From IMG/VR virus record IMGVR_UViG_3300032291_001215, positions 1 to 38,185 of that record: 38,185 nt of DNA; one strand, given 5' to 3'. This DNA comes from a virus. Positions 5,071-27,519 of the stretch are shown here, piece by piece (the stretch's first letter is position 1; every line of letters begins with the position of its first letter). The translations under genes and the position numbers were made by a program. The notes beneath the pieces are model-generated. The model saw only the letters and a list, made by a program, of their open reading frames with translations, had not been told where the DNA came from and searched no databases.

Positions 5071-5469
5071 ATGGCAAATCCAAATATCGTCAACGTCACG
5101 ACCCTCACAGGCAACACGACGTACTTAACTCCTAGCGGCACAACTGCTGTTGTTCTGTTGCCCAACGCCGCATCTTCTGGTTTGGTCTACAAGATCAATC
5201 AGATTGTCTGCGCTAACGTGAACGGCTCTTCTGCCGTGAATGCTACCGTAGCCATCTACACCAACGGTGCTGTGGCCCAAGGCTCTGCACCTAGCGGTGG
5301 TACGGCATACCCAATCATCTCAACGATCTCTGTGCCTGCTAGTGCATCACTGATTGCTGTGGACAAGACAACTGGTGTCTATCTGATGGAAGGCACATCA
5401 ATCACTGTGACTTCTGGCACAGCGAGCGGTATCACTTACACGATCAGCTACGAATCTATCGCTTCTTGA
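5071..5469 (+). CDS. Small virion/fibre-associated protein
   Basis: A 132-residue, Ala/Thr/Ser-rich, all-beta-looking protein without membrane segments. It lies 9 bases after the previous stop, behind a GGAACC ribosome binding site. The sequence pattern (NTTYLTPSGTTAVVLLPNAA, then alternating hydrophobic strands) resembles small virion proteins that accompany fibres. It directly precedes the RCC1 gene block, so it could form the adaptor or collar to which the propeller proteins attach. That placement is inference; no family was recognised. Confidence 0.6.
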   Translation: MANPNIVNVTTLTGNTTYLTPSGTTAVVLLPNAASSGLVYKINQIVCANVNGSSAVNATVAIYTNGAVAQGSAPSGGTAYPIISTISVPASASLIAVDKTTGVYLMEGTSITVTSGTASGITYTISYESIAS

Positions 5470-5481
5470 TAGGGGAACAGT

Positions 5482-6636
5482 ATGTCATTACGACAAATGT
5501 TCGCTGGGAGTATTGTTAAGCCGGGCTTTAACCCGCTGGCGGCACAGACCACCACTTATACAAATTATTTGTATTCTTGGGGGTATAACGATTTTGGTCA
5601 GCTCGGTTTAAGTAACATTACAAACTACTCATCACCCAAACAAGTTGGATCGTTGTCAAATTGGGCGACGATTGCTAATGTTAAAACTGAGAATGGCAAT
5701 TCTGCTCAGTTTTTAGCAACAAAAACCGATGGTACTTTGTGGGTCTGTGGCAGAAATAATGTTGGACAACTTGGATTGGGTAACATAACTAACTACTCAT
5801 CACCCAAACAAGTTGGTTCTCTTACTAATTGGTTAAGTGTATCAGCAGGAGAATACTCTACTGCGGCAATTAAAACTGATGGCACTCTGTGGTCTTGGGG
5901 AGATAACTTTCAAGGCCAACTTGGTTTGACCAATAGAACAAATTATTCATCGCCCAAACAAGTCGGCTCTTTGTCAAATTGGTCTAAGGTTACATCAGGC
6001 TACTACCATACTGTTGCCGTCAAAACTGATGGGACGCTTTGGTCTTGGGGTTTGAATGATTATGGTCAATTAGGATTGAATATAGCCGTTACCGCTAAAA
6101 GATCATCTCCAACGCAAGTCGGCTCCCTCACGAACTGGCTAAATGTTTCCGCTGGTGGATATTTTACTGTTGCTGTAAAAACAAACGGAACATTATGGAC
6201 GTGGGGACGTAGTAATTTTGGCCAACTTGGTTTAGGTACCACAACTTCTTACTCATCTCCAAGGCAAGTTGGTTCTTTGCTTAATTGGGCAAGTGTTAAC
6301 ACTGGAACATATCATGTTCTTGCAATTAAAACTGACGGCACGTTATGGACTTGGGGATATAACGGCGCTGGCCAACTTGGTTTAAATAACCAAACGGATT
6401 ATTCATCACCTAAACAGGTGGGTGTTTTAACAACTTGGTCGCAAACCTCTGGTTCTGTTTACTCATCTGCTTCTGTCAAAACTGATGGAACTTTATGGGG
6501 TTGGGGACAAAATAATGTTGGCCAATTAGGTTTTGGTAACACAACTTATTATTCATCTCCAAAACAACTTGGCGCATTAACAAATTGGTACAGAGTATCT
6601 TTTACGGCTACTTCTACCTTCGCTTTAGGATACTAA
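5482..6636 (+). CDS. RCC1-repeat seven-bladed propeller protein, pair A first gene
   Basis: A 384-residue protein. After a 35-residue N-terminal segment (VKPGFNPLAAQT) come seven repeats, each with a WSWG-type and a GQLG-type motif (for example LWSWGLNDYGQLGL) and a SSPKQVGSL linker, spaced about 50 residues apart. Seven RCC1 repeats form one complete beta-propeller. In eukaryotes and bacteria RCC1 propellers are binding scaffolds; here, among phage fibre genes, a receptor-binding role is the likeliest. The N-terminal segment is shared with the gene at 9609, so it may be the virion attachment part. The codons are visibly more AT-rich than in neighbouring structural genes, suggesting acquisition from another source. 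Confidence 0.85.
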   Translation: MSLRQMFAGSIVKPGFNPLAAQTTTYTNYLYSWGYNDFGQLGLSNITNYSSPKQVGSLSNWATIANVKTENGNSAQFLATKTDGTLWVCGRNNVGQLGLGNITNYSSPKQVGSLTNWLSVSAGEYSTAAIKTDGTLWSWGDNFQGQLGLTNRTNYSSPKQVGSLSNWSKVTSGYYHTVAVKTDGTLWSWGLNDYGQLGLNIAVTAKRSSPTQVGSLTNWLNVSAGGYFTVAVKTNGTLWTWGRSNFGQLGLGTTTSYSSPRQVGSLLNWASVNTGTYHVLAIKTDGTLWTWGYNGAGQLGLNNQTDYSSPKQVGVLTTWSQTSGSVYSSASVKTDGTLWGWGQNNVGQLGFGNTTYYSSPKQLGALTNWYRVSFTATSTFALGY

Positions 6637-6637
6637 T

Positions 6638-7819
6638 ATGCCAATACTTGTATCAGGCGTTCAATACTCAGGCATCTGGACAATGCAACAGGTGAATGCC
6701 GCTATTGCGGCTGGGACTTGGCCTTTGCCTCCGTATATGTACTCTTGGGGTTTAAACAATACTGGTCAGCTTGGTACTGGAAACATAACAAGTTATTCAT
6801 CTCCAAAACAAGTTGGTTCTTCTGCCAGATGGACAACTGGAGCCTCTGGTGGTTATTGGAATGTTGGAAGAACTTTTGTTGTAGCAATCAAATCCGATAA
6901 TTCGCTTTGGTCTTGGGGCGGTAACACAAAAGGTCAACTTGGTCTTGGAAATAGAACTGATTATTCATCTCCTAAGCAAGTTGGTTCATTGACTACTTGG
7001 TCTTCAGTTTCTGCTGGCGGGGGATATTCAAGTTGTTTTGCCGCCGCAATCAAGTCGGATGGAACATTGTGGGTTTGGGGAGATAACATTGAAGGTCAAT
7101 TAGGTCTTGGCAACAGGACGTCTTATTCCTCACCAAAGCAAGTTGGAGCGTTAACTAATTGGTCAAAAGTTTCTTGCGGTGCTTATTATCAGTACACAGC
7201 CGCCGTCAAAACTGATGGAACATTGTGGTCTTGGGGCTATAACTTCTTTGGTCAACTTGGTCTTGGTAACACAACTTCTTATTCATCTCCAAAGCAGGTT
7301 GGATCTTTAACAAATTGGCTTTCCGTTGCTACTGGGTACGCAACAACTTGGTCAATTAAAACAAACGGAACCTTGTGGTCTTGGGGTTATAACGCCAATG
7401 GAGAGCTTGGTATTGGTAATACAACCGATTACTCCAGTCCAAAACAAATTGGTGCGTTAACTAATTGGCTATCAGTTACTTGTGGATATAACCATGCACT
7501 TGCAATCAAGACGGATGGAACCTTGTGGGCTTGGGGTAGGAACATAGTTGGAAATCTTGGAACTGGAAACATTACCAACTATTCTTCACCAAAACAAATT
7601 GGAGCTTTAACAACATGGTCAAAAACCATGCTGACTGGTAACTATGCTAGTTTTGCCATTAAAACCGACGGTACTTTGTGGTCATGGGGTTTAAATAGCA
7701 ATGGTCAACTTGGACTCAATAATAGAACATATTATTCTTCGCCAAAACAAGTTGGTTCACTAACTACTTGGTATCAAGTATTTTCTGGTAGTGAATCAGC
7801 ATATGCTATAAATCAATAA
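6638..7819 (+). CDS. RCC1-repeat seven-bladed propeller protein, pair A second gene
   Basis: A 393-residue protein beginning one base after the stop of the first RCC1 gene. The N-terminal 35 residues (GVQYSGIW ... AAGTWPLPP) differ from pair A first gene but match the gene at 10736. Seven RCC1 repeats follow, with WG/GQLG pairs such as LWSWGGNTKGQLGL and one variant reading GELG and one GNLG. All seven blades are present, so the propeller should be closed. Like its neighbour it is AT-rich. The likely role is a tail appendage that binds a host surface ligand; the ligand cannot be read from the sequence. Confidence 0.85.
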   Translation: MPILVSGVQYSGIWTMQQVNAAIAAGTWPLPPYMYSWGLNNTGQLGTGNITSYSSPKQVGSSARWTTGASGGYWNVGRTFVVAIKSDNSLWSWGGNTKGQLGLGNRTDYSSPKQVGSLTTWSSVSAGGGYSSCFAAAIKSDGTLWVWGDNIEGQLGLGNRTSYSSPKQVGALTNWSKVSCGAYYQYTAAVKTDGTLWSWGYNFFGQLGLGNTTSYSSPKQVGSLTNWLSVATGYATTWSIKTNGTLWSWGYNANGELGIGNTTDYSSPKQIGALTNWLSVTCGYNHALAIKTDGTLWAWGRNIVGNLGTGNITNYSSPKQIGALTTWSKTMLTGNYASFAIKTDGTLWSWGLNSNGQLGLNNRTYYSSPKQVGSLTTWYQVFSGSESAYAINQ

Positions 7820-7839
7820 AACTTCTTAAAAATAAACAC

Positions 7840-9612
7840 ATGAACAAAACACTGCACTTCCTCTCTGGCATTCCACGTTCTGGCTCTACAGTCCTTGCGG
7901 CTATCCTGAACCAGAACCCAATGACCCATGTATCTACCACATCTGGGCTTGTCCACGCCCTTGATGGCTTGGCCAATACATGGCACTCAGCAGGTCTTTT
8001 GAATGACAACGACCCCACCAGAGAAAAGCTTGCGCAAACCATGCGCGGGTGCATTGATGCGTTCTATGCCGATACAGACAAGCCTGTCATCATTGACAAG
8101 TCTCGTGGCTGGCCTATTCCCCAGATTATGGGTGCTATGTCACAAGTGATTGGCCGTCCATGCAAGGTGATTGCTACAGTGCGTCCAGTGCCAGACTGCA
8201 TGGCTTCATTTGTCCGTGTGGCAAAGCCTGCCGATCTGGATGAGTTCATGTATTCAGGCCAGTTAGCTGACCACCTGAAAGCCGCTTATTTGTCTTTGGA
8301 AGCTGGCTACCAAGCCATGCCAGAGAACTTCCTGTTTGTTGAATACGACAAGCTGTTGGCTGATCCCCGCGCAGAGCTGGCTCGTATCCATGAGTTCTTG
8401 GAACTGCCTGCATACGACTACGACTTCTCCAACATTGATGGCTCGTCAGTCAAAGAAGACGACGAGAATCTGCACGGCTACGCTGGTATGCACGATGTCA
8501 AACCAGTTTTGGCTAAACAGCACAATGATGTATCAAAAGACTTGCTCAAGCACCACTACAACCAATTCTGCCAGCCAGAGTTCTGGAGTAACGGAAAACG
8601 AACAATGCCTGAGTTGGATGACCTCGATCTTCAGGTCGCCGCAGGCAAGATGGGTGACTTCGCTGAAGGCTGGAGACTGTCTGAGAAACTCCACGCGGAG
8701 CGTCCTAACGACCACCGAGCCGCCTATAACCGCTCATGGTACTTGCTCAAACAGGGTCAGATTGGCGAAGGCTACAAACAGATGGATCGCGGTCGCTACT
8801 GCGGGATCATCGGTGAGCGTCGACCTGATACACCAGCTCCTGAGTGGGACGGCAAGACCAAGGGCACAATCCTCTTATACTGCGACCACGGCTTGGGTGA
8901 TCAGATTCACCAAGTGCGTTATGCCCGTGACCTAGTGGCTCGTGGCAACAAGGTTGTTGTTTGCTGTTCTGGTCAACTGGCGCACTTGTTTGCCGGAATT
9001 GAAGGCGTATCCGCTGTCGTTCAGGTTGGTGCTGAGTTTGGTGTGTACCATGACTTCTGGTGCTACGGCATGACAGCCCCTAACTACCTTGGCTACGAGA
9101 TGTCTGATCTGCGTGGTGATCCATACATCACAAAGCCTACGACCATCAAAGGCCGTAAAAAACGCATCGGCATCCGCTGGCAGGGCAACTCAAAGTTTGA
9201 GGATGACCACAACAAACGATTTCCCTATGAGTTGCTGTTCAACGCCATCAAAGATGCTGACGCGGAATTCATTTCACTACAGCGTGATGAGGGTTCTGAG
9301 GCTTGCCCAATATGGGTAAAACAAGTACCATTAAACACATGGGCAGACACCCAAGCGGCGGTGGCTAGTTGCGATCTGGTGATCTCTTCTTGCACATCAG
9401 TCAGCCATTTGGCGGCGGCTATGGGCGTGGAAACATGGGTGGTGATTCCAGTGATGGGGTACTACTTGTATGCGTTAGACGGCGACAAGACACCTTATTA
9501 CGACACCATGACTTTATTCAGGCAAGAAGTATTTGGCGAGTGGGAAGCTCCGTTTGAGAAGATCAAGGAGCGCCTGAACGCCAATCGTGCCGCACTAAGG
9601 AGCGTAGCGTGA
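7840..9612 (+). CDS. Sulfotransferase-TPR-glycosyltransferase (GT9-like) fusion
   Basis: A 590-residue multidomain enzyme. Residues 1-230 are a PAPS-dependent sulfotransferase: FLSGIPRSGSTVLAAIL at 7-23 is the 5'-phosphosulfate loop and VEYDKLLADPRAEL near 167 fits the family. Residues about 265-330 resemble a TPR (AAYNRSWYLLKQGQIGEGY). Residues about 340-590 look like a GT9-type heptosyltransferase C-terminal half, with YCDHGLGDQIHQVRYA and SSCTSVSHLAAAMGVETWVV, the latter aligning with the ADP-heptose-binding HLAAALG motif of that family. It could transfer sulfate and a sugar to one acceptor. It sits between the two RCC1 pairs, and ADP-heptose genes follow 3 kb downstream. I see no strong ribosome binding site before its ATG. 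The acceptor is unknown. Confidence 0.8.
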   Translation: MNKTLHFLSGIPRSGSTVLAAILNQNPMTHVSTTSGLVHALDGLANTWHSAGLLNDNDPTREKLAQTMRGCIDAFYADTDKPVIIDKSRGWPIPQIMGAMSQVIGRPCKVIATVRPVPDCMASFVRVAKPADLDEFMYSGQLADHLKAAYLSLEAGYQAMPENFLFVEYDKLLADPRAELARIHEFLELPAYDYDFSNIDGSSVKEDDENLHGYAGMHDVKPVLAKQHNDVSKDLLKHHYNQFCQPEFWSNGKRTMPELDDLDLQVAAGKMGDFAEGWRLSEKLHAERPNDHRAAYNRSWYLLKQGQIGEGYKQMDRGRYCGIIGERRPDTPAPEWDGKTKGTILLYCDHGLGDQIHQVRYARDLVARGNKVVVCCSGQLAHLFAGIEGVSAVVQVGAEFGVYHDFWCYGMTAPNYLGYEMSDLRGDPYITKPTTIKGRKKRIGIRWQGNSKFEDDHNKRFPYELLFNAIKDADAEFISLQRDEGSEACPIWVKQVPLNTWADTQAAVASCDLVISSCTSVSHLAAAMGVETWVVIPVMGYYLYALDGDKTPYYDTMTLFRQEVFGEWEAPFEKIKERLNANRAALRSVA

Positions 9613-10733
9613 GCTTTAGATATGCCGCTGGATTCAATAAGCCGGGCTTTAATCCGCTGGCTACGCAAACGCCTACATACTTATACAACTTGTTTAGTTG
9701 GGGTTCAAATAATAGCGGTCAGTTAGGTATTGGTAACACTACTAGATATTCATCTCCAAAGCAAGTAGGGTCATTAACAGATTGGTCTGTTATTAGTTTG
9801 AATTGGGTTACATCAAGTTCAATTAAAACTGATGGAACTTTATGGATATGGGGTAATAATAACTTTGGTCAATTAGGTCAAGGAAATACAACAAATTATT
9901 CATCCCCAAAACAAGTAGGTGCTTTAACTAATTGGAGTACGGTTAGTGCTGGTTACTCTCATACCATAGCTGTTAAGACTGATGGTACATTATGGGGATG
10001 GGGTTGGAATGGTAATGGGCAGTTGGGATTAAATAACAGAACTAACTATTCTTCTCCAGTACAAATTGGCGCATTGACTACTTGGCTAAAAGTTTCTGCC
10101 GCTTATATCTCAACATGCGCTATTAAAACTGACGGTACGCTTTGGTCATGGGGTGGTAATAATCATGGTCAGCTTGGCCTTGGAAATATAACAGCGTATT
10201 CCTCACCAAAACAAGTTGGATCATTGACTAATTGGTCTTCTGTTTATGTTGGAATTATAACTAACTGCGTTATTTCAGTAAAAACAGATGGCACTCTTTG
10301 GTCATGGGGGACTAATCAATCTGGTCAGTTAGGTTTAGGCAATAGGTCATATTATTCATCCCCTAAACAAATTGGCGCATTAACAACTTGGGCATCTGGT
10401 CAAACTGGACTTTCCACAGGTGCCATTAAAACTGATGGTACATTGTGGACTTGGGGATCTAATACAGCGGGCCAACTTGGTCAAGGTAATACAACCAATT
10501 ACTCTTCGCCTAAACAAGTTGGAAGTTTGACAAATTGGCTTAGTATTGCTTGTGGCGCTTATTTCATGACATCTATAAAAACAGATGGAACTCTGTGGAC
10601 TTGGGGTAAAAATGATTATGGCCAACTTGGCTTAAGTAATATAACTAACTACTCCTCACCAATACAAGTTGGATTAACAACTACATGGTTGCGAGTTTCT
10701 GCTGGATATACCGCAGTATTGTCTAGAGGATAA
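9609..10733 (+). CDS. RCC1-repeat seven-bladed propeller protein, pair B first gene
   Basis: A 374-residue protein using GTG in a GTGA overlap with the stop of the fusion enzyme, so the two are translationally coupled. The N-terminal KPGFNPLATQTPTY matches the gene at 5482, including a 23-base stretch with one mismatch at the DNA level. Seven RCC1 repeats follow (for example LWGWGWNGNGQLGL), giving one full propeller. The last repeats differ clearly from those of pair A. It is AT-rich like the other RCC1 genes. A receptor-binding or virion appendage role is inferred from context. Confidence 0.85.
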   Translation: MSFRYAAGFNKPGFNPLATQTPTYLYNLFSWGSNNSGQLGIGNTTRYSSPKQVGSLTDWSVISLNWVTSSSIKTDGTLWIWGNNNFGQLGQGNTTNYSSPKQVGALTNWSTVSAGYSHTIAVKTDGTLWGWGWNGNGQLGLNNRTNYSSPVQIGALTTWLKVSAAYISTCAIKTDGTLWSWGGNNHGQLGLGNITAYSSPKQVGSLTNWSSVYVGIITNCVISVKTDGTLWSWGTNQSGQLGLGNRSYYSSPKQIGALTTWASGQTGLSTGAIKTDGTLWTWGSNTAGQLGQGNTTNYSSPKQVGSLTNWLSIACGAYFMTSIKTDGTLWTWGKNDYGQLGLSNITNYSSPIQVGLTTTWLRVSAGYTAVLSRG

Positions 10734-10735
10734 AT

Positions 10736-11911
10736 ATGGCAACACAACTTATTCAAGGCGTTCAATACTCAGGCATCTGGAACATCAGCAGTCAAGCAAA
10801 TGCTAAGGGGGCGGGAACTTGGCCTATTCCGCCGCAAGCTCGTTTATTTGCTTGGGGTAAGAACACTGGCGGTCAGATGGGTTTTAGCAATACCACAGCT
10901 TATTCATCGCCAAAACAATTAAACGCTACAGCCAATTGGTTAGATGTTGTTTCAGGTTACAACACCATACAGGGAATTAGATCTGATAACAGTTTATGGG
11001 TTTGCGGTATTAATAACTTTGGTGAGCTTGGTTTAAATAATAGAACAGCCTACTCATCTCCTAAGCAAGTTGGCTCTTTGACCGATTGGTCAAAAATTGG
11101 TGGAGCAGGCAATGGCCCTATTGCTGTTAAAACGGATGGAACACTTTGGTCTTGGGGATACAACCTCCGAGGCCAACTTGGGTTAAATAACACAACAAAT
11201 TATTCATCACCAAAACAAGTTGGTGCTTTGACAAATTGGTCATCAATCGGGAAAAGTCTTTACGGTCTATTTTCACTGGCTACAAAAACAGATGGAACCA
11301 TTTGGTCTTGGGGTCAAGGAAGTGATGGAAGATTGGGTCTTGGAAACAGCACCTACTACTCATCGCCAAAACAAATTGGATCGCTTACCAATTGGTCTAA
11401 AGCCGCTGGCGGTAACGCTTTTGCTATTGCACTCAAAACCGATGGCACTTTGTGGTCGTGGGGTATCAATGACCAAGGTCAATTAGGGTTGGGCAATACA
11501 ACCAGATATTCCTCACCAAAACAAGTTGGTTCAAACACAAATTGGCTAGACATTGCCGCCGGATACCAGCATACACTTGCTGTTACAACAGGCGGAACCT
11601 TGTGGGCTTGGGGTAGAAACAATTACGGTCAATTGGGTATAGGTCTTTCAGGGCCCGGAACTTATAAGTCATCACCAACTCAAGTTGGGTCTTTAACTAC
11701 TTGGTTGGCAGTGGCTGGTGGTTTTTACTCTACAGTGGCAGTTAAAACTGATGGCACAATTTGGTCTTGGGGCTATGGCGGCGCTGGTAGCCTTGGCCTT
11801 GGCAACACCACAAACTACTCAAGTCCAAAGCAAATTGGCGCTTTAAATACTTGGGTTCGACCATATAGTTTCTATGAAACAGCCGTTGCGTTTGGCGCGG
11901 TAAACGGTTAA
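10736..11911 (+). CDS. RCC1-repeat seven-bladed propeller protein, pair B second gene
   Basis: A 391-residue protein starting 2 bases after the previous stop. Its N-terminal IQGVQYSGIWNI ... GAGTWPIPP matches the gene at 6638, with a 26-base identical stretch at 10756-10781 against 6655-6680. Seven RCC1-type repeats follow; several are divergent (GQMG, GELG, GRLG, GSLG), making this the most degenerate of the four propellers. The same gene order as in pair A argues for duplication of a two-gene cassette. The function is probably ligand binding at the tail. Confidence 0.85.
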   Translation: MATQLIQGVQYSGIWNISSQANAKGAGTWPIPPQARLFAWGKNTGGQMGFSNTTAYSSPKQLNATANWLDVVSGYNTIQGIRSDNSLWVCGINNFGELGLNNRTAYSSPKQVGSLTDWSKIGGAGNGPIAVKTDGTLWSWGYNLRGQLGLNNTTNYSSPKQVGALTNWSSIGKSLYGLFSLATKTDGTIWSWGQGSDGRLGLGNSTYYSSPKQIGSLTNWSKAAGGNAFAIALKTDGTLWSWGINDQGQLGLGNTTRYSSPKQVGSNTNWLDIAAGYQHTLAVTTGGTLWAWGRNNYGQLGIGLSGPGTYKSSPTQVGSLTTWLAVAGGFYSTVAVKTDGTIWSWGYGGAGSLGLGNTTNYSSPKQIGALNTWVRPYSFYETAVAFGAVNG

Positions 11912-11938: not shown

Positions 11939-12328
11939 ATGACACATTTCGTGCAAGTCCTCAATGGTGAGGTAAAACAAGTTTGGGACACGCCTCCATC
12001 TGAAGGTGTTGGTAACAACGGCTGGCGTAACGCTGTCGAAGTTCGTCCTACGATTCAAGCTGGTCGCCAAGGCTATACAGCCCACCGCTTTGACCTGAGC
12101 GTTGACCCCGTGCAGATCATCTGGGATACATACGAGATCTCTGTGGATGACCGCAAAGGTGGCATGAAGTCAAACGCTGGTTTTGGGTTCCAGATGGTTG
12201 TGAACCAACAGGCTCGTAACCCTGAGACATTTGATGCCGCCGCTATTGAGACTGCTCGTCAGGCCATGGTTGCCAAGCAAGCGGCCATCGATGCCTGCAC
12301 TACGCACGACGAACTCGACGCTCTGTAA
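11939..12328 (+). CDS. Putative fibre-associated or fibre-assembly protein
   Basis: A 129-residue protein behind a strong AAAGGAG ribosome binding site. It begins VQVLNGEVKQVWDTPP, the style of small phage proteins encoded directly after tail fibres, and has an aromatic middle (GYTAHRFDLSVDPVQIIWDTYEISVDD). Its C-terminal 40 residues form a charged helix (AAIETARQAMVAKQAAIDAC). Proteins with this helix and position often act in fibre assembly. That role is inferred from layout, not from a confirmed family match. Confidence 0.6.
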   Translation: MTHFVQVLNGEVKQVWDTPPSEGVGNNGWRNAVEVRPTIQAGRQGYTAHRFDLSVDPVQIIWDTYEISVDDRKGGMKSNAGFGFQMVVNQQARNPETFDAAAIETARQAMVAKQAAIDACTTHDELDAL

Positions 12329-12424: not shown

Positions 12425-13006
12425 ATGAAGATCAACTTAGGTAGTGGCTACAAGCGTATTGACGGGTTTCTCAACATCGATGACGACCCGCTGGTTGAGC
12501 CGGATTTCCTTTGCAACATCGAGCAAGACAAGTTGCCCCTTGAGGACAACTCTGTTGACGAGATCCGTGCCCACCACATCCTCGAGCATATCGGGGAAGG
12601 ATTCATCCCCCTGATGAAAGAATTGCACCGTGTATGCAAGCACGGCGCTTTGCTGGACATCGTGGTTCCGCACCACTTCCACGACAACTTCTACGGCGAT
12701 CCCACCCATAAGCGCCCCATCACTGTGAGCGGGATGCACATGTTCTCCAAGAAACATTGTGAGGAGCACCGTGAAGTGTATGGCTCCAATTCTGGCATGT
12801 CGCTCAAGTATGGAATTGACTTTGACGTAGAGTCGTTTGACTTTGAGTACGACCCCTTCTATCACGGCCTGCTGGACATGATCAAGCAGAAGACCGAGAA
12901 CGGTACATTGACGCATGAAGAGAATCAGATGTTCAGGCGTTTGATGCGGGAAGCGAACAATGTGGCGCTTCATACCTTAATCAAGATGAGGGCGGTGAAA
13001 GAATGA
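12425..13006 (+). CDS. Class I SAM-dependent methyltransferase
   Basis: A 193-residue protein with NLGSGYKRIDGFLNID at residues 4-19, the glycine-rich SAM-binding loop followed by an acidic strand end. The next segments, LPLEDNSVDEIRAHHILEHI and MKELHRVCKHGALLDIVVP, are motifs of the Methyltransf_11-type fold. The C-terminal part is His/Asp/Phe-rich (HHFHDNFYGDPTHKRP) and may shape the substrate site. It is first in the overlapped sugar operon and ends in an ATGA overlap with the APS-kinase-like gene. Methylation of a sugar or fibre glycan is a reasonable guess; the substrate is not readable. Confidence 0.75.
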   Translation: MKINLGSGYKRIDGFLNIDDDPLVEPDFLCNIEQDKLPLEDNSVDEIRAHHILEHIGEGFIPLMKELHRVCKHGALLDIVVPHHFHDNFYGDPTHKRPITVSGMHMFSKKHCEEHREVYGSNSGMSLKYGIDFDVESFDFEYDPFYHGLLDMIKQKTENGTLTHEENQMFRRLMREANNVALHTLIKMRAVKE

Positions 13007-13446
13007 AAATCCTGATCATGGGCTTGCCCGGCGCAGGCAAAACAACCTTGGCTGAAGCTTTGGCCAGACAGCTTCAAGCGGTTCACTTCAACGCAGACGA
13101 GATCCGCCGTGAGATCAACAAAGACCTAGGCTTCAGTATTGCTGACCGCTTGGAGCAAGCTCGTCGCATGGGCGTTCTGTGTGACATTGCCAGTCGTCAT
13201 GGCTCTCATGTGATTGCTGACTTTGTCTGCCCAACACCAGAGGCTCGTGAGGCTTTCAAGCCTGACTTCCTGATCTGGGTTGACCGCATCAAAGAAGGGC
13301 GTTTTGAAGACACAAACAAGCTGTTTGTACCGCCTGAGAAGTACGATGCGCGTATTGAAGGCCCGTGGGGTATGCAGTACTACGCCGAAGAGCTGGCACG
13401 CAGGATCAACCCTCGCCAACCAACATCACTTTACAAAGTCGGATGA
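13003..13446 (+). CDS. Adenylylsulfate (APS) kinase-like P-loop protein
   Basis: A 147-residue P-loop kinase. GLPGAGKTT at residues 7-15 is the Walker A loop. NADEIRREINKDLGFSIADR at about 28-47 aligns with the DGDNVR...LNKDLGFS signature of CysC, the enzyme that phosphorylates APS to PAPS, the sulfate donor of sulfotransferases. The protein is shorter than usual CysC (about 200 residues), and its C-terminal lid (FEDTNKLFVPPEKYDARI) departs from the classical one. The start overlaps the upstream stop (ATGA) and its own stop overlaps the next start. It pairs logically with the sulfotransferase at 7840. Another small-molecule kinase is the alternative. Confidence 0.7.
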   Translation: MKILIMGLPGAGKTTLAEALARQLQAVHFNADEIRREINKDLGFSIADRLEQARRMGVLCDIASRHGSHVIADFVCPTPEAREAFKPDFLIWVDRIKEGRFEDTNKLFVPPEKYDARIEGPWGMQYYAEELARRINPRQPTSLYKVG

Positions 13447-13856
13447 TAGTCTTTACCAACGGTTGCTTCGATGTGCTCCATCGTGGGCACGTTGAGTATC
13501 TTAAAAAGTCCCGCAAGCTCGGGAAAAGACTGATCGTTGGTCTGAATTCGGACGAGTCAGTAAAACGCCTCAAAGGCCCGAATAGACCCATCAATAACGA
13601 AGAAGATCGCAAAGCAGTCTTGCTGGCGCTGAGGTTTGTAGATGAGGTCATCATCTTTGACGAGCCAACGCCGCTTAGGCTGATTCAGGTCTTGAATCCA
13701 GACATCATCACAAAGGGTGGCGACTACAAGCCTGAGCAGGTAGTGGGTTACACCTTTGTCAAACAGACAGTCATTATTCCGTTCTTAGACGGCTATTCAT
13801 CAACAAGGATTATCAATGAGACTATCGGGGATTGTGGAAAAGGGTTGGGGCTCTGA
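13443..13856 (+). CDS. rfaE2: D-glycero-beta-D-manno-heptose 1-phosphate adenylyltransferase
   Basis: A 137-residue nucleotidyltransferase corresponding to the C-terminal domain of HldE/RfaE. It makes ADP-heptose from heptose 1-phosphate and ATP. TNGCFDVLHRGHVEYL at residues 5-20 holds the HxGH catalytic motif (13-16). GLNSDESVKRLKG, NPDIITKGGDYKPEQVVG and the ending DGYSSTRIINETI follow the family closely. I chose the ATG at 13443, in an ATGA overlap with the preceding stop, because the family starts right at this strand; in-frame codons further upstream lie inside the kinase gene. The kinase half is encoded separately at 14166, with a cupin gene between them. Confidence 0.9.
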   Translation: MIVFTNGCFDVLHRGHVEYLKKSRKLGKRLIVGLNSDESVKRLKGPNRPINNEEDRKAVLLALRFVDEVIIFDEPTPLRLIQVLNPDIITKGGDYKPEQVVGYTFVKQTVIIPFLDGYSSTRIINETIGDCGKGLGL

Positions 13857-14169
13857 GTTAATCTGGGCTACCAACGATAAATACTGCGGCAAGCTGATGA
13901 CCTTCAACGAAGGCGCTAAGTTCTCCATGCATTTTCATGCCGTAAAAGACGAGACTTGGCTAGTCCAAAGTGGGCTGTTCAAAGTGATCTACATTGGCAC
14001 GCAAGATGCGCAACGATACGAAAAAATCCTCAAGGTGGGAGATACTTGGAGAAACAAGCCGCTTGAGCCTCACCAGCTCATTTGCCTTGAAGCAGGTGTG
14101 ATCTTGGAAGTCTCAACTGCTGACTCGGTGGAGGACAACTACCGCATCGAGCCGGGGGACAGCCAATGA
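13816..14169 (+). CDS. Cupin-domain protein, sugar isomerase/epimerase type
   Basis: A 117-residue single-domain cupin. Residues 7-30 (VEKGWGSELIWATNDKYCGK) resemble the opening of mannose-6-phosphate isomerase-type cupins. FNEGAKFSMHFHAVKDETWLV at about 30-50 is cupin motif 1, with metal-ligand candidates H39, H41 and E46. EPHQLICLEAG at about 92-102 is motif 2, with H94. It overlaps the adenylyltransferase by 41 bases, and its TGA overlaps the next ATG. Placed inside a heptose operon it may isomerise or epimerise a sugar phosphate or nucleotide sugar, or be a regulator. The substrate is unknown. Confidence 0.75.
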   Translation: MRLSGIVEKGWGSELIWATNDKYCGKLMTFNEGAKFSMHFHAVKDETWLVQSGLFKVIYIGTQDAQRYEKILKVGDTWRNKPLEPHQLICLEAGVILEVSTADSVEDNYRIEPGDSQ

Positions 14170-14879
14170 AGATCTTAGTCATTGGTGATGGGTGCATAGA
14201 CGAATACCGCTACGGATACATAACCCGCGTCAATCCAGAGTCTGCCGCACCTTTATTGAGCTTCGAGGACAGCGAGGAGAAGATGGGCATGGCGTTCAAC
14301 GTAGCCCAGAACCTGCAAGCATTTGGTGCAGATGTCACTTTGTGCGTTAGTGAAGAGCTATCCCGCAAAATCCGCTATATCAACCGCCGGACAGGTGAAC
14401 ATCTTCTTCGGGTAGATATGGACGAGGAGTCCCTGCCATACGACTTCAGTGTGCCCTTGAAAGACTTCGATGCCATCGTGATCTCGGACTACAACAAAGG
14501 CTTTGTTTGGGATCAGACCATTCAAGAGCTTAGGCAACAGTTTGCTGGCCCGATCTACATGGACACCAAAAAGAAGAACCTAGCGGACTTCCCCGGCGTG
14601 TACATAAAAATCAACCAACGTGAGCTGTACGAGGCCACATCCATTCCCGAGCAGGACAAGCTGATCGTCACCTACGGCTCCAAAGGCTGTGGCTACAAAG
14701 ACAAGATGTATCCTGCCAAGCCTATCGAGGTGGTGGATGTATGCGGTGCAGGTGACGTGTTCTTGGCCGCTATGGTGGTCAAGCACTTAGAAACTGGCGA
14801 CATGGGCATAGCTTTGCCGTTTGCCAATGAGAAAGCGGCAATCTCTTGCCAGAGTCTGGGGGCTGTATGCGTATCCTGA
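14166..14879 (+). CDS. rfaE1: D-glycero-beta-D-manno-heptose-7-phosphate kinase, shortened
   Basis: A 237-residue PfkB-family kinase corresponding to the N-terminal half of HldE, which phosphorylates heptose 7-phosphate at C1. Family marks are ILVIGDGCIDEYRYG at 3-17, TRVNPESAAPLLSFED at about 20-35, GMAFNVAQNLQAFGADVTL (GGAANVA in standard enzymes), VISDYNKGF, DTKKKNLADFPG and DVCGAGDVFLAAMV, where GAGD at 194-197 holds the catalytic Asp. It is about 80 residues shorter than usual, with the loss mostly in the middle (the region after residue 60), so activity should be tested. It overlaps hldD by 13 bases. Confidence 0.85.
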   Translation: MKILVIGDGCIDEYRYGYITRVNPESAAPLLSFEDSEEKMGMAFNVAQNLQAFGADVTLCVSEELSRKIRYINRRTGEHLLRVDMDEESLPYDFSVPLKDFDAIVISDYNKGFVWDQTIQELRQQFAGPIYMDTKKKNLADFPGVYIKINQRELYEATSIPEQDKLIVTYGSKGCGYKDKMYPAKPIEVVDVCGAGDVFLAAMVVKHLETGDMGIALPFANEKAAISCQSLGAVCVS

Positions 14880-15637
14880 TCACTGGCCACAAAGGCTTCA
14901 TTGGCCAAAACATGGTCAAGGCTCTGTCAGATCATGAGCTAGACCTATGTGAGTGGGGCGATGAGTATTCCCTCTATGGAATAGACCGCGTCATTCACCT
15001 CGGAGCGATCTCCGACACCCGCTGTGACGACTGGATAGCCCTTCGTAAGCAAAACGTGGGTTTCACCATCACCCTGATGGAGCGTTGCCAGAAGTACGGC
15101 ATTCCGATCCAGATTGCCTCCTCCGCATCGGTTTATGGCCCCCACAACACGACTTTTCGGGAGACTGACCCTGTAGCGCCAGCCAATCTCTACGCCGAGT
15201 CTAAGGCGATTGTGGAGGCTTACTTCCACACTATGCGCCCAATTTCACCAGTTCAAATCTTTCGCTACTTCAATGTGTATGGCCCCCACGAGGATCACAA
15301 GGGTGATCAGGCTTCCCCGTTCCACAAGTTTAGAGAGCAAGCCAAGACTGGCGTGATTAAGATTTTTGAGGGAAGTGACCAGTTTCAGAGGGACTTTATC
15401 CACGTAGACGAGGTGATTAACGTGCACAAACGGTTCTTCAAAGTGGCCGAGTCCGGCATCTGGAACGTGGGCACTGGAAAAACAATGTCATTTGCCGATG
15501 TCGCCCTCTTGGCAAGCACTGAAATACCAGCGAAAATACAGACCATTCCGATGCCCAAAGACCTAAAGTCTGGGTATCAAAAATTTACCCAAGCCGATTT
15601 AACCAAAATCAAGGCGACCCTAAAAAATGAGCGTTGA
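14867..15637 (+). CDS. hldD: ADP-L-glycero-D-manno-heptose 6-epimerase
   Basis: A 256-residue short-chain dehydrogenase/epimerase. It converts ADP-D-glycero- to ADP-L-glycero-D-manno-heptose with bound NADP. ILITGHKGFIGQN at residues 3-15 is the Rossmann loop. ASSASVYGPH is followed by YAESKA, with the catalytic Tyr and Lys. RYFNVYGPHEDHKGDQASPF and FEGSDQFQRDFIHVDEV are HldD-specific stretches, followed by WNVGTG. It is about 50 residues shorter than the E. coli enzyme. I used the ATG at 14867, directly before the Rossmann strand and behind a G-rich ribosome binding site; an upstream TTG at 14846 would add seven unrelated residues. It overlaps the genes on both sides. Confidence 0.9.
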   Translation: MRILITGHKGFIGQNMVKALSDHELDLCEWGDEYSLYGIDRVIHLGAISDTRCDDWIALRKQNVGFTITLMERCQKYGIPIQIASSASVYGPHNTTFRETDPVAPANLYAESKAIVEAYFHTMRPISPVQIFRYFNVYGPHEDHKGDQASPFHKFREQAKTGVIKIFEGSDQFQRDFIHVDEVINVHKRFFKVAESGIWNVGTGKTMSFADVALLASTEIPAKIQTIPMPKDLKSGYQKFTQADLTKIKATLKNER

Positions 15638-22365: not shown

Positions 22366-25300
22366 ATGGCGATTGAAAACAAATACAGCTACGTATACGA
22401 AGACAACCCAGAATACAGCGATGTCTATGTCAATGCATACCTGAACGCTCTTTCAGGCTATGGTTACAATGAAGAGGCCGTCAACAAGATGGCCCAATCC
22501 GTTTTTGGACAACCAGTAAAACAGGCCACAGTCCAAGCCGAGGTTGCCTCTCCTCTATCTACTATTGCCGCCCCAACTAATGTTGTCGAAACTACTGGAG
22601 CCGCAAATACTGGCGCCTTAGACAAATCAGGCGCTGTTACTCAAACCAATCTTAATCAACAGACCGTACCCACTGGTGCGCTTACACAAGCTACACAGCA
22701 AGCGACCACACAAAATCAAGTAACAACACCAAGCACATTGGCGGCTTCAGCCACTGATGTTGACGGGTTACCAACATCAACAGGTCTAACTGCCGCGCAG
22801 AAGTTGGAGCTAGATACTTCCTCTCAAGTTGACGCTGGAAAAACATCAACAGCAAAACCCACCACAGAAAAAATTGAGCTTGAGGGAAAAGTTTACGACA
22901 TCAATCTTGATGATGTTGCCAAACTCAAAGCTCAAATTTTGGCTCAAGGCACTTCAGCAAATTGGACTGGTGCTGGATATGGTTCTCCTGAAGCTAATGC
23001 TGAAGCCATGGCCAAACAGTTGGTTGCCAACGGCGTGAAGGACATCTATCAAGTTGGCATGGTTGATGTCAAAGTTGATCAAGCCGTTACGCCAGTTTAT
23101 GAACAAGGTGACTTGGTCAGTGATGGTGAAGGCGGAAGCTATTACACGCAAAAACTTGTTGGTTACAAGGACGCTCAAGGCAATATCGTAGACCCCAACT
23201 TGGTTAAAACAGAATACATCTCTGGTGGGGAAAGTGGTTCTGACACTACAGCGTATGTAGCTCCTATTGGAACCCAAAAAGTCATTGGTAACAAAGAAAC
23301 AGGACAAGCTTTAATTAAAGCTTTCAGCGAGTCCGACAAAATAGGCGACCTGTGGTCTGGAACCTATGCCGGCGAGGGAAACACAGCCTTCAGAACCACC
23401 TTTACTGCTGACGGGAAACCTATCTTTTACACAACTGGCGGGTCTTCCAATGACTTGGTCAAGATGTTTGCCGACGACCCAATCCTTGGGAAAATTGCCA
23501 CTGCCGCCGCCGCATACTTTGGTGGCCCAGCAGGCGTGGCCGCGCTACAAGCCGCTCAAGGTAAAAGCATTGAAGACATCGCAAAAGGGGCACTGCTGAC
23601 CTATGTGGGTGGTGAAGTTGCTGGACAGATTTCTGGATCTACGGATCTTGTAAACACAATTGGCGCTGACGCAACAAACGTGCTTGCCAAGGGTGCTGGA
23701 AAGTTGGTTTCAAGCCAAGGTAAAGCTGACATTGGCAACTTGCTGATTGGCGGCGGTATCGATGCAGGCGTAAACGCTATCGTTGGAACAATCGATGGTT
23801 TTGATAAATTAAGCGCTGGTGAGCAAGACTTTGTCAAAAACGTAGCAAAGACAACCCTTCAAAATGGTGGTGACTTATCTATTGGCGACTTGGTTGACGC
23901 TGGCATAACAGCCGCAACTACAGCCGCAAAAGCCTCTAAGACCGGGACAATTGCTACAGCTATTCAGGCTGACAAGGCTGTCAACGACGCTGTGAATGCT
24001 GAACTTGATAAGGCTTTGACATTTGATGCTAGTGGTGCGACAGACGTCAATGCGGCACAACAAGCGGCTGATGCGGCTGGTTACGGTAAGTTCACATTCG
24101 GTGGCAAGACTTACACGATTAACGCTAACGAAAACGCAAAGATTGCCGATCTTGAGAGCACCGTAAAATCAGAGACGGATGCGACAAAACTTGCTACAAC
24201 AGCCGCCAATCTGGCTGGCGGTGAGTTTGCCGGAGTAGATGCGGCTGTGGCGGCCAATGCAAAGGCCAACAATACTGTTATTGGTAATGATGAGGCTGAA
24301 ACTCCTGAGCAAGCCGCGGCTTTAGCCAAGGCTCGTAACCCAAATGGTACGACATTCACCTTTGGTGGCCAGACCTACACGTTAGGCACATCAAACGCCG
24401 CTTTGCAAGCCGCAGTTACTCAAGACAAAATTGACAGCGCGACTTCTTTTAATGATGCTTACAAAGCCGCTCGTGATGGCTTGGGGGCTGGCAAAATATT
24501 TACTTGGAACGGTAAACAGTACACCACTGACACCCGTGAAGAGAACCCATCTCTTGCCGCCGCGTCTGACATTGCTCGTCTGAACAGCATTGCCGCTTCA
24601 ACAGAGGCTGGTGGTGGTCGTGGATCAGCCGCTTCCTATGCCAACTATGACGCTAAAGCCGCCGCTAATGCATTGGACAAAACAAAAGTCATCCCAGACT
24701 TCACTGCTGGCGATGCATACGGCTTTAATGATACGGTCTACGACCCATCAACAGGCGTAGCGCTACTGAACAGCACAGCCACTGCCAACCCCAATACTGC
24801 TTTGGGTAAGGCTGTAATTGCCGCAAACAATGCCATAGGCTCTGTTGTGCAGACAGGACTGTCTAACCTTGCCAGCGCAGGCGGAGAGCAACTGGCGGCA
24901 TTTGGTGGCGCTTTGGCCACTATTGGCGCAACAGACGCGAACAACATGCTTGTGAAGGCTGGTAAAGCCGCCCAAGATCTTGGTTCTGCCATTGAAACTG
25001 CTGAGTCCAAGCAAGGCACACAGAATATTGTGAACGCCGTGTCCAAAGCCGATGGCATGGGCGGAAAGCTGATTGCTGGTTTGAAGGCTGGTTGGGAGAA
25101 CCCTGTTGCCGCTTTGAACATGATCACCCGCGAAGGCTTCCAAGAGATCTTGCCTGCTGGAGTGGCTCTTAAAGCCTCCAAGATCATGAGCCTTGCCGCG
25201 GCGGCGGGTATTGATACCGCTTTGAACGCCGGTGAGTCTATGGGTCAGGCATACAACGATGCTTATGCCGCGGCCATCGCCAAGGGCATGAGCAAAGAAA

Positions 25301-27519
25301 ACGCAGATGCACTGGCCACCAAAGTAGGTTTGTCTGCTGGCGCTATCACATTGGTCACCTCTGGTGTCATGGACGCCGCCTTGATCAAGACCGTGTTCCG
25401 AGAAGGCTCTGGCTCCATCGGATCTCAGCTTGCCAAGGGTTCAACCAAGGAAGGTATCTCTGAGAACATTGAAGAGACTGCCACAGCTTTGGCCACACAG
25501 TACCTCACCACAGGAAAGATTGACCTTGGTGATGCGATGACGCAAGGCGCACTTGGTCACTTGATTGGCAAAACAACTGCTGGCTCTGTTGGTGCGGTGG
25601 ATGTCGCCGCTCAGACTGAGACAATCAACAACAACATTTCAACCGCCGTCACTTCTGGAGATGCGGCAAGTGTGAACACGGCGATTACAAACTCTGTCCA
25701 ACAGTCTTTGACCAGTGGCGCGTCTGTTGAGGTTGCTGTTGGGGCTTCTGTCAACTCTGCGATCACCAACGGAGCTGATGCAGGCGCGTCTATCACCTCT
25801 GCCGTGACTTCTGCTGTAACAAATGGTGCAGACGTAACTCAGACCGTCACTTCGTCGATTGACTCAGCTATCACAGCAGGCGCTGACACCTCGGTTGCAA
25901 TCAATTCAACGGTGACCTCTGCTATCACAAGCGGTGCAGATGTGTCTCAGACTGTGTCCAGCTCAATTACAGCGGCCACCAATGCCGGCGTAAATGTTAC
26001 GACTGCAACCAATGCCGCCGTGACAGCCGCTGTATCCACCGCGGTGACGACCGGAGCCAATACAACCACCGCCATCAACACGGCTGTGACCGCGGCTGTA
26101 ACTTCTGGCGCAAATGTCAATGCGGCTGTGACGACCGCTGTAACTGCGGCTGTAGATTCATCGATCACCAATGCGGTGACCAATGGCACAAGCGTAGCTA
26201 CTGCCGTGACAAGCTCTGTGGCTACATCGGTTAATGCGGCTGTGACAAACAACACAAGCGTGACAACGGCGGTTGAGACTGCTGTAACTACGGCCATCAC
26301 TTCTGCGGTTACAAACAATGCAGATGTAAATACCGCTGTTAACTCAGCCGTGACTTCTGCGGTCACAACTGCTGTCACCAGCAACACCAACATAAACACC
26401 GCTGTAACTACCGCCGTCAACTCTGCTGTTACGACTGCGATCAACAACAACGTAAACGCAAACACGGCAATCACCACATCGGTAACAGCGGCAATCAATG
26501 CGGCAGTAACGACAAACGCCAACACCAACACAAATGTAAATACAAACGTAAATACAAATGTGAACACGAACGTGAACACCGCTGTCAACACTGCTGTGAC
26601 AACTGCCGTGGACGCGGCCGTGAATGCTGGTGTGGATGTCAACACTGCTGTAAATGCCGCTGTGAATGCCGCCGTCAGCACAAACGTCAAAATTGACATC
26701 AAAGAGCTGACAAAGTTGGCAACTGATGCGGCAACGGACTCTGTTGCAAAAGTTGACTTGATCAGCTCGGTCAATGACTTGATCTCAGGCACGCCAACGG
26801 ACAAGACAGTTACGTCAACAACACCTAAAACGCCTGTTACAAAAACACCTACAAAAACCTCGCCGGCTTTAACTGCTGGTTTGATGGCTGGCATGGTTGG
26901 CGGGGCTGATTTAGGTCGCCTGCCACCTCAAATGCTCAAGGCGTACATGACTCAGGATAAGTTCGTAGATCCGCTTGCCAAGCTTCATGCTTTGCAAGAT
27001 GACATGAATACTGAGAAAATGCCAGCATTACCTCAAGTTAATACACAGGAAGCAGATATGCCAGATCAAGGCACGTGGAAATACGGGAATGCCCCAGACG
27101 ACATTGACACATTGTTTGGTGAGCAACCAGAGGAAGAGGCCGCTTTCAAGGCTGGTGGCTACGTAGCCCCCTTGCAGATGGCCTCTGGTGGTGCTATGCC
27201 ATTGCCCCTGCTGGCCAAGTCTGGCGGTGCTCTAGGAGCCCTTCCCCGTCCTGACGGCCGCATGGATTTCCGCCACGGCGCCCATGTTGCCGGCGAGGGT
27301 GACGGCCAGTCCGACGACATCAAAGCCATGCTAGCTGACGGTGAGTTTGTGTTCCCTGCGGACGTAGTTTCTGCGCTGGGAAATGGCTCAACCAAGGCTG
27401 GTTCAGATAAACTATACGAAATGATGCACGCCATTCGTGAGAGAGCACGGTCTAAGAAGCCAAAAGACCTGCCACCACCAGCGCTGAAATCACCACTTGA
27501 CTACCTGAAGAAACGGTAA
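22366..27519 (+). CDS. Giant repeat-rich internal/ejection-type virion protein
   Basis: A 1717-residue protein. Residues 60-150 are low-complexity Thr/Gln/Ala. Residues about 560-735 contain three similar units with FTFGGKTYTI, FTFGGQTYTLG and FTWNGKQYTT. Residues about 930-1080 are helical (GFQEILPAGVALKAS, EGISENIEETATALATQYLT). Residues about 1098-1380 are a tandem repeat of Val/Ala/Thr/Asn tetrads. The C-terminal 140 residues (MASGGAMPLPLLAKSGGAL, GEGDGQSDDIKAMLADGEF, VFPADVVSALGNGSTKAG) form a tail shared by many phage ejection-block proteins. It heads the ejection block ending with a transglycosylase, so a role in DNA delivery is likely. An amphipathic repeat could contact membrane. Confidence 0.75.
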   Translation: MAIENKYSYVYEDNPEYSDVYVNAYLNALSGYGYNEEAVNKMAQSVFGQPVKQATVQAEVASPLSTIAAPTNVVETTGAANTGALDKSGAVTQTNLNQQTVPTGALTQATQQATTQNQVTTPSTLAASATDVDGLPTSTGLTAAQKLELDTSSQVDAGKTSTAKPTTEKIELEGKVYDINLDDVAKLKAQILAQGTSANWTGAGYGSPEANAEAMAKQLVANGVKDIYQVGMVDVKVDQAVTPVYEQGDLVSDGEGGSYYTQKLVGYKDAQGNIVDPNLVKTEYISGGESGSDTTAYVAPIGTQKVIGNKETGQALIKAFSESDKIGDLWSGTYAGEGNTAFRTTFTADGKPIFYTTGGSSNDLVKMFADDPILGKIATAAAAYFGGPAGVAALQAAQGKSIEDIAKGALLTYVGGEVAGQISGSTDLVNTIGADATNVLAKGAGKLVSSQGKADIGNLLIGGGIDAGVNAIVGTIDGFDKLSAGEQDFVKNVAKTTLQNGGDLSIGDLVDAGITAATTAAKASKTGTIATAIQADKAVNDAVNAELDKALTFDASGATDVNAAQQAADAAGYGKFTFGGKTYTINANENAKIADLESTVKSETDATKLATTAANLAGGEFAGVDAAVAANAKANNTVIGNDEAETPEQAAALAKARNPNGTTFTFGGQTYTLGTSNAALQAAVTQDKIDSATSFNDAYKAARDGLGAGKIFTWNGKQYTTDTREENPSLAAASDIARLNSIAASTEAGGGRGSAASYANYDAKAAANALDKTKVIPDFTAGDAYGFNDTVYDPSTGVALLNSTATANPNTALGKAVIAANNAIGSVVQTGLSNLASAGGEQLAAFGGALATIGATDANNMLVKAGKAAQDLGSAIETAESKQGTQNIVNAVSKADGMGGKLIAGLKAGWENPVAALNMITREGFQEILPAGVALKASKIMSLAAAAGIDTALNAGESMGQAYNDAYAAAIAKGMSKENADALATKVGLSAGAITLVTSGVMDAALIKTVFREGSGSIGSQLAKGSTKEGISENIEETATALATQYLTTGKIDLGDAMTQGALGHLIGKTTAGSVGAVDVAAQTETINNNISTAVTSGDAASVNTAITNSVQQSLTSGASVEVAVGASVNSAITNGADAGASITSAVTSAVTNGADVTQTVTSSIDSAITAGADTSVAINSTVTSAITSGADVSQTVSSSITAATNAGVNVTTATNAAVTAAVSTAVTTGANTTTAINTAVTAAVTSGANVNAAVTTAVTAAVDSSITNAVTNGTSVATAVTSSVATSVNAAVTNNTSVTTAVETAVTTAITSAVTNNADVNTAVNSAVTSAVTTAVTSNTNINTAVTTAVNSAVTTAINNNVNANTAITTSVTAAINAAVTTNANTNTNVNTNVNTNVNTNVNTAVNTAVTTAVDAAVNAGVDVNTAVNAAVNAAVSTNVKIDIKELTKLATDAATDSVAKVDLISSVNDLISGTPTDKTVTSTTPKTPVTKTPTKTSPALTAGLMAGMVGGADLGRLPPQMLKAYMTQDKFVDPLAKLHALQDDMNTEKMPALPQVNTQEADMPDQGTWKYGNAPDDIDTLFGEQPEEEAAFKAGGYVAPLQMASGGAMPLPLLAKSGGALGALPRPDGRMDFRHGAHVAGEGDGQSDDIKAMLADGEFVFPADVVSALGNGSTKAGSDKLYEMMHAIRERARSKKPKDLPPPALKSPLDYLKKR
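25671..26693 (+). repeat. Tandem 18+4n-residue repeat region inside the giant protein
   Basis: About 300 residues consist of units starting with a turn (NGAD, SGAN, NNTS) followed by tetrads of the form xAVT. Reading the units from turn to turn gives lengths 18, 18, 18, 18, 22, 18, 26, 22, 22, 22, 22, 22, 38 and 18, always 18 plus a multiple of 4. One unit contains a VNTN run repeated four times. The DNA is less repetitive than the protein, so the pattern is kept by selection or is old. It may form a long amphipathic helix array. Confidence 0.7.

Follow-up and report, generated by a model that had tools for sequence, protein, structure and literature searches.

Replacement of receptor-binding domains behind conserved anchors is an already known kind of variation in phages, and the presence of RCC1 genes in phages is in itself nothing new. 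Such proteins carry the PHROGs label 'regulator of chromosome condensation', in the category DNA metabolism, and RCC1 matches occur in 64 phage-collection records. The jumbo coliphage phAPEC6 encodes eleven RCC1-like proteins, for which its authors suggested an inner-body or DNA-condensation role (PMC7247149). Caulobacter FlmG is a flagellin O-glycosyltransferase that combines TPRs with a glycosyltransferase (GT); its TPRs bind several flagellins, and all six are modified (PMC7591256). Within the open-access literature (subscription journals and preprints lay outside the scope of our search), we found no description of phage RCC1 propellers together with glycosyl- or sulfotransferases, or of shared sockets together with a sulfotransferase-TPR-glycosyltransferase (STGT).

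The window, by which we mean the whole stretch of DNA that was analysed, is a linear 38,185-nt IMG/VR virus record of freshwater phage DNA, and a near-twin contig is 99.93% identical to it across 13.5 kb. It contains a five-gene block in which STGT separates RCC1 pair 1/2 from pair 3/4 (Table 1). The explanation that we judge best, with a confidence somewhat above even, is that the four RCC1 proteins are swappable tail-recognition propellers that are modified by a dedicated STGT.

Table 1. Features of the RCC1/STGT locus, by position in the window
Feature	Position	Strand	Evidence and remarks
Small conserved protein	5071..5469	+	No family match; directly 5' of the RCC1 genes in most loci (synteny)
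RCC1 propeller 1 (slot 1)	5482..6636	+	Socket MSLRQMFAGSIVKPGFNPLAAQT, then 7 PF00415 repeats; AF2 closed propeller
RCC1 propeller 2 (slot 2)	6638..7819	+	Socket GVQYSGIWTMQQVNAAIAAGTWP, 7 PF00415 repeats
STGT, 590 aa	7840..9612	+	Fused: sulfotransferase ~1-200, TPR ~261-321, GT-B glycosyltransferase ~340-587
RCC1 propeller 3 (slot 3)	9609..10733	+	Socket SFRYAAGFNKPGFNPL, 7 PF00415 repeats
RCC1 propeller 4 (slot 4)	10736..11911	+	Socket GVQYSGIWNISSQANAKGAGTWP, 7 PF00415 repeats
Small conserved protein	11939..12328	+	No family match; 3' of the RCC1/STGT block in most loci (synteny)
APS kinase-like protein	13003..13446	+	PF01583 1.2e-15, motif FNADEIRREINKDLGFS
Heptose-1-phosphate adenylyltransferase domain (HldE domain II)	13443..13856	+	TIGR02199 4.6e-52, slightly under cut-off
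Heptose-7-phosphate kinase-like PfkB protein (short HldE domain I)	14166..14879	+	TIGR02198 4e-33, under cut-off
ADP-heptose 6-epimerase-like protein (HldD)	14870..15637	+	TIGR02197 2.1e-60, under cut-off

Repeats, predicted fold and blade variation

The first-pass annotation described four genes with seven repeats each, and the profile search agrees, as do the ORF coordinates: PF00415 matches the window 28 times, with seven repeats for every one of the four ORFs, each match exceeds the curated cut-off (E between 9e-17 and 3e-6), and the same search gave 0 matches in 14 control genomes. Exactly seven repeats are present in 392 of the 404 RCC1 proteins that we collected. Structure prediction, which the annotation had proposed as a check on propeller closure, came out in its favour. 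The AF2 model of gene 1, made from a 42-sequence alignment, has 28 strands (7 x 4) with a mean pLDDT of 91.7 and a pTM of 0.88, and the closest solved fold found by Foldseek is UVR8 (6dd7; TM 0.83, rmsd 1.5 A), among neighbours that comprise UVR8, HERC RLDs and RCC1 (TM ~0.83-0.85, rmsd 1.5-2.2 A). We are confident in the prediction that gene 1 encodes a closed seven-bladed beta-propeller.

It had also been supposed that these propellers are acquired binding modules, the AT-rich codon use being taken as a sign of recent acquisition. The four genes have a GC content of 39-45% and a GC3 of 26-35%, in a window whose overall GC is 50%; however, GC3 is lower in the RCC1 genes than in the adjoining enzyme gene in 79/79 relatives. 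AT-richness is therefore a standing trait and thus no sign of recent acquisition, and we reject the argument. The view of the propellers as binding modules fares better, since it agrees with their slot-specific N-termini, with the exchangeability and saturated diversity of the propellers, and with the restriction of variation to what appears to be one face.

Entropy over 2,049 blades has its maxima at positions 9, 11, 12 and 40-46, which map to the B-C and D-A' loops in the strand order of the AF2 model, and the A-B (VGSLT) and C-D (TDG) loops, on the opposite side of the blade, are conserved. By strand order, the B-C and D-A' loops share one side of the four-stranded antiparallel blade, and blade variation appears to be concentrated on one face of the propeller. 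The GWRHT interface motif of UVR8 presumably falls at positions 41-45.

Sockets, propeller exchange and a probable role in the tail

The comparison of related phages that the first-pass annotation recommended yielded slot-specific N-termini, a pool of propellers and an association with the enzyme gene in 80/80 contigs. Among 35 genomes in which the enzyme gene has a pair of RCC1 genes to each side, the N-terminal segment (the socket) is 72, 73, 70 and 66% identical within slots 1-4 and 23-52% identical between different slots, and propeller identity is 57-59% whichever slots are paired. Where STGT is 96-98% identical to that of the window, the propellers are only 53-65% identical. Identity at four-fold degenerate sites is 0.35-0.53 in the propellers versus 0.68-0.79 in STGT, and among the RCC1 paralogues of the window itself it is 0.32-0.49, the same level as for propellers between relatives. 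Such low values imply that the propellers have been replaced or are saturated, and are not merely under amino-acid selection.

Because saturation on its own could produce the flat 58% propeller identity, we sought direct swaps. At 91% identity, the slot-3 propeller of one genome (L069) matches the propeller in slot 1 of another (L077), with same-slot pairs of these two genomes at 56-59%, and therefore propellers move between fixed sockets. In a second case (L062 and L101), a propeller that is 97% identical at the nucleotide level is joined to a different N-terminus. Clean whole-propeller swaps between slots are few, and in two genomes (L065 and L164), blades that resemble one another at 80-90% in shifted registers point to blade amplification. 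A diversity-generating retroelement was rejected as the source of variation: a search for reverse transcriptase (PF00078) in 10 records, which are possibly fragments, gave 0 matches.

When sockets were searched for by DNA pattern alone, an RCC1 propeller lay behind the socket in 58/58 and 81/82 complete ORFs, and this search found no socket on any other domain, the lone exception being a truncated ORF of 26 residues. Judged from these sequences, the RCC1 proteins have the makeup of a conserved N-terminal anchor with an exchangeable C-terminal domain. RCC1/STGT cassettes, moreover, occupy different phage backbones: four relatives (L032, L033, L048 and L102) in which STGT is 97% identical show just 23-36% identity in p1292, an upstream structural gene, and terminase identity among relatives runs from 76% down to no relationship by BLAST. 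In relatives whose STGT is 96-98% identical, the small proteins bordering the block are 82-100% (upstream) and 89-94% (downstream) identical; the first is possibly a connector and the second possibly a fibre-assembly protein.

Tail- or fibre-like proteins are encoded upstream of the RCC1 genes of the window, and in phage S-SRM01 the RCC1 array lies downstream of baseplate and long-tail-fibre genes. This position after tail-protein-like genes favours a role in the tail, and we infer that the four RCC1 proteins are the host-recognition (receptor-binding) parts of the virion. A short slot-specific N-terminal peptide would dock each protein onto the particle, and the variable face of the seven-bladed propeller would contact the host surface. 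Recombination would replace propellers within and between slots and between phages, so that one cassette would sample many specificities. That the RCC1 proteins are exchangeable recognition proteins is, in our judgment, likely.

Two other roles for the propellers have to be weighed against these data. If RCC1 proteins organised or condensed DNA inside the capsid, as their name, their PHROG category and the suggestion of the phAPEC6 authors (PMC7247149) would have it, then one would not expect them to lie among tail genes or to have docking peptides specific to each slot, hypervariable propellers that are swapped, and a single variable face, and we disfavour an inner-body protein of this kind as very improbable indeed. 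The context likewise argues against an RCC1 nucleotide-exchange or chromatin function. Alternatively, the propellers could act outside the virion as secreted or intracellular decoys or as host-takeover proteins, a proposal for which there is room in that the literature on these phages yielded no virion proteomics. Yet a search of the RCC1 proteins for strongly hydrophobic segments found none, docking-like conserved N-termini occur solely on RCC1 propellers, and the neighbourhood is one of tail genes; we consider such a role improbable.

The fused enzyme and its partners

The first-pass annotation was silent on the gene between the two RCC1 pairs, and STGT may be the most informative part of the locus. 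Its N-terminal part matches PF13469 (E 1.3e-14, over the cut-off) and contains the PAPS-binding motif PRSGSTVLAA, which is invariant in 19 STGT homologues; profile and motif together mark it as a putative PAPS-dependent sulfotransferase (ST). The AF2 model of the whole protein has a pLDDT of 81.8 and a pTM of 0.56, so that the relative placement of its domains is uncertain. In Foldseek searches, the first part was closest to tyrosylprotein sulfotransferases (TPST2), the TPR-GT part to SPY and bacterial OGT, and the GT part to the heptosyltransferases WaaF and WaaC and the protein heptosyltransferase TibC; at the level of sequence, the PDB yielded no significant match to the GT part. Pfam TPR profiles have 0 matches in the STGT of the window and do match two homologues (L025 and L245). 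The model places a predicted TPR part and GT-B part in one chain, as in FlmG. No strongly hydrophobic segment was found in STGT, and no PADLOC defence family matched it.

Using only the enzyme as query, and not RCC1, we found RCC1 genes at most three genes away in all 80 viral contigs that carry an STGT homologue; where the contig extends, they lie upstream in 75/75 and downstream in 63/69. The five STGT matches in bacterial assemblies (L167-L171) also have RCC1 on the same contig. One of these (L168) carries genes for a phage head and a terminase that does not resemble the others, and another (L171) is chromosomal-looking and encodes a 27-repeat RCC1 protein, CysDN and APS kinase, with ST and TPR-GT in genes of their own; L168 and L170 are minimal RCC1+STGT pairs. 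Unfused TPR-GT and ST genes sit among the RCC1 genes of S-SRM01 and related cyanophage contigs, which are unrelated to the window phage, and also in the marine virus AG-345-E08, together with ADP-heptose-like genes. In the Synechococcus phage BUCT-ZZ01, which is cultured on S. elongatus PCC 7942, a 14-repeat RCC1 gene is followed by a GT gene. There are exceptions to the association: many phage RCC1 genes, among them those of Clostridioides, Brevibacillus and Pseudomonas phages, lie without such an enzyme in their vicinity, and in one podovirus a TPR-GT is present and RCC1 was not detected.

We propose that the propellers are the substrate of STGT, with FlmG as a working precedent. The enzyme would be cytoplasmic, its TPRs would recognise the conserved propeller framework, and it would add sugar and/or sulfate before assembly, the sugar being heptose in phages with ADP-heptose genes. 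Downstream of the block are a methyltransferase, an APS kinase-like protein and an HldE/HldD-like ADP-heptose synthesis set, and the locus additionally has a cupin and sugar-nucleotide genes. The APS kinase-like gene, present in 29/32 long loci, possibly supplies PAPS for the sulfotransferase. As for the sugar, the ADP-heptose genes suggest heptose as the donor moiety in the window phage; but because the set is complete in only 12/32 long loci, heptose is no general donor, and donors probably vary.

The obvious candidates for the acceptor are an N-x-T sequon, which occurs in 88% of blades within the clade of the window, and a Tyr before SSP, which occurs in ~75%. Among RCC1s whose linked STGT homologue is distant, these values fall to 44% and 5%, so that the simplest acceptor-site prediction failed and both sites were rejected as universal acceptors. 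The tyrosine, moreover, is the residue to be expected as substrate if TPST2, the best fold match, were the guide, yet it is scarce (5%) in these distant partners.

Chances are about evenly divided, in our estimate, that STGT modifies the propellers. Under a competing account, the propellers bind receptors and STGT, sharing a variable locus with them, modifies the surface of the infected host or another phage protein, for instance to block superinfection. The methyltransferase, cupin and sugar-nucleotide genes nearby, the many sugar-modifying genes in cyanophage tail loci and the TPR-GT that occurs without RCC1 would all fit this account. It is at odds with the flanking of the enzyme by RCC1 in 80/80 loci, the existence of minimal RCC1+STGT pairs, the lack of a strongly hydrophobic segment in STGT, and the resemblance of its TPR and GT-B parts to the protein-modifying FlmG and OGT/SPY, and we regard it as unlikely, though not strongly so. 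Modification of the propellers by STGT, if real, could extend to a widespread system, in which fixed tail sockets take propellers from a shared recombining pool and one dedicated TPR-guided bifunctional enzyme adds both sugar and sulfate to each propeller. This broader proposal is tentative, and we rate its chances as short of even; if true, the host-recognition surface would be both genetically exchangeable and chemically decorated.

Relation to known systems

Phage RCC1 proteins are now catalogued as chromosome-condensation proteins, and the socket-and-pool pattern of the 35 four-slot genomes makes a role in tail recognition directly testable, with hundreds of natural propeller variants available on one framework. 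Viruses that chemically finish their own adhesins are uncommon, and a phage sulfation and glycosylation enzyme tied to the propellers would, if true, add such a case; STGT-type enzymes would then be a source of protein-modifying enzymes.

With the RCC1-like propellers of UVR8, HERC RLDs and human RCC1 (PF00415/PF25390), the phage proteins share seven 50-residue repeats and a closed fold; they differ in their short slot-specific docking N-terminus, hypervariable face, tail context and exchange between slots. Synechococcus phage S-SRM01 and phAPEC6 have several RCC1 genes, as does the window, and S-SRM01 has separate ST and TPR-GT genes, but the fused enzyme and the four-slot arrangement are neither seen nor reported in them. 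Compared with TibC and other GT9 heptosyltransferases (4rap, 1psw, 2h1h), STGT has a matching predicted GT-B fold, with ADP-heptose genes nearby in the window; however, identity is only ~13%, TPR and sulfotransferase parts are added, and many STGT relatives lack ADP-heptose genes. FlmG and STGT both join a TPR substrate-binding part to a GT-B part, and as FlmG acts on several paralogous surface proteins, so the presumed substrates of STGT are paralogous; STGT differs in its extra N-terminal sulfotransferase, in being encoded by a phage, and in that its substrate is deduced from context. Finally, the RCC1 proteins resemble modular phage receptor-binding proteins in having a conserved anchor and an exchangeable variable domain, and depart from the usual kind in that an RCC1 propeller serves as the domain, one pool supplies as many as four sockets, and a putative dedicated modifying enzyme is encoded among them.

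Base composition and propeller arrangement

At 5482-11911 in the window, and in relatives, GC3 was lower in the RCC1 genes than in the enzyme gene, which encodes the sulfotransferase-TPR-glycosyltransferase fusion, at every locus compared (79/79; medians, 0.29 vs. 0.54).

Among related loci, a single ORF adjoining the enzyme gene fuses 21 RCC1 repeats, i.e., three propellers' worth, in L113 and L114, and a tandem array of seven or eight RCC1 genes, each with seven repeats, is present in L149 and L150. Both types of socket (the short, slot-specific N-termini preceding the propellers) are fused serially ahead of a single propeller at L041 6778, L050 11773, L054 11773 and L101 1522, where downstream RCC1 genes are fewer.

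Accompanying genes

Further features of the window
Feature	Position	Description
APS kinase-like protein	13003-13446	Motif NKDLGFS; close to sulfotransferase
ADP-heptose biosynthesis-like set, in phage	13365-15637	HldE adenylyltransferase, short HldE kinase, cupin, HldD
1,717-aa protein	22366-27519	In podovirus-like tail/ejection region

The APS kinase-like protein, whose gene was found in 29 of the 32 long relatives, probably serves in PAPS supply; the full ADP-heptose biosynthesis-like set was present in 12 of these 32. The 1,717-aa protein gave no family match that was informative.

Bacterial and Kelch-linked loci

In an 800-kb bacterial MAG (L171), a single, apparently chromosomal locus contains a 27-repeat RCC1 protein, CysDN and APS kinase, with the sulfotransferase and TPR-glycosyltransferase as separate genes. 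Proteins with Kelch repeats, another propeller family than RCC1, adjoin related sulfotransferase genes in S-SKS1 (L244), AG-345-O18 (L246) and AG-345-L05 (L247), and AG-345-O18 also carries ADP-heptose-like genes.
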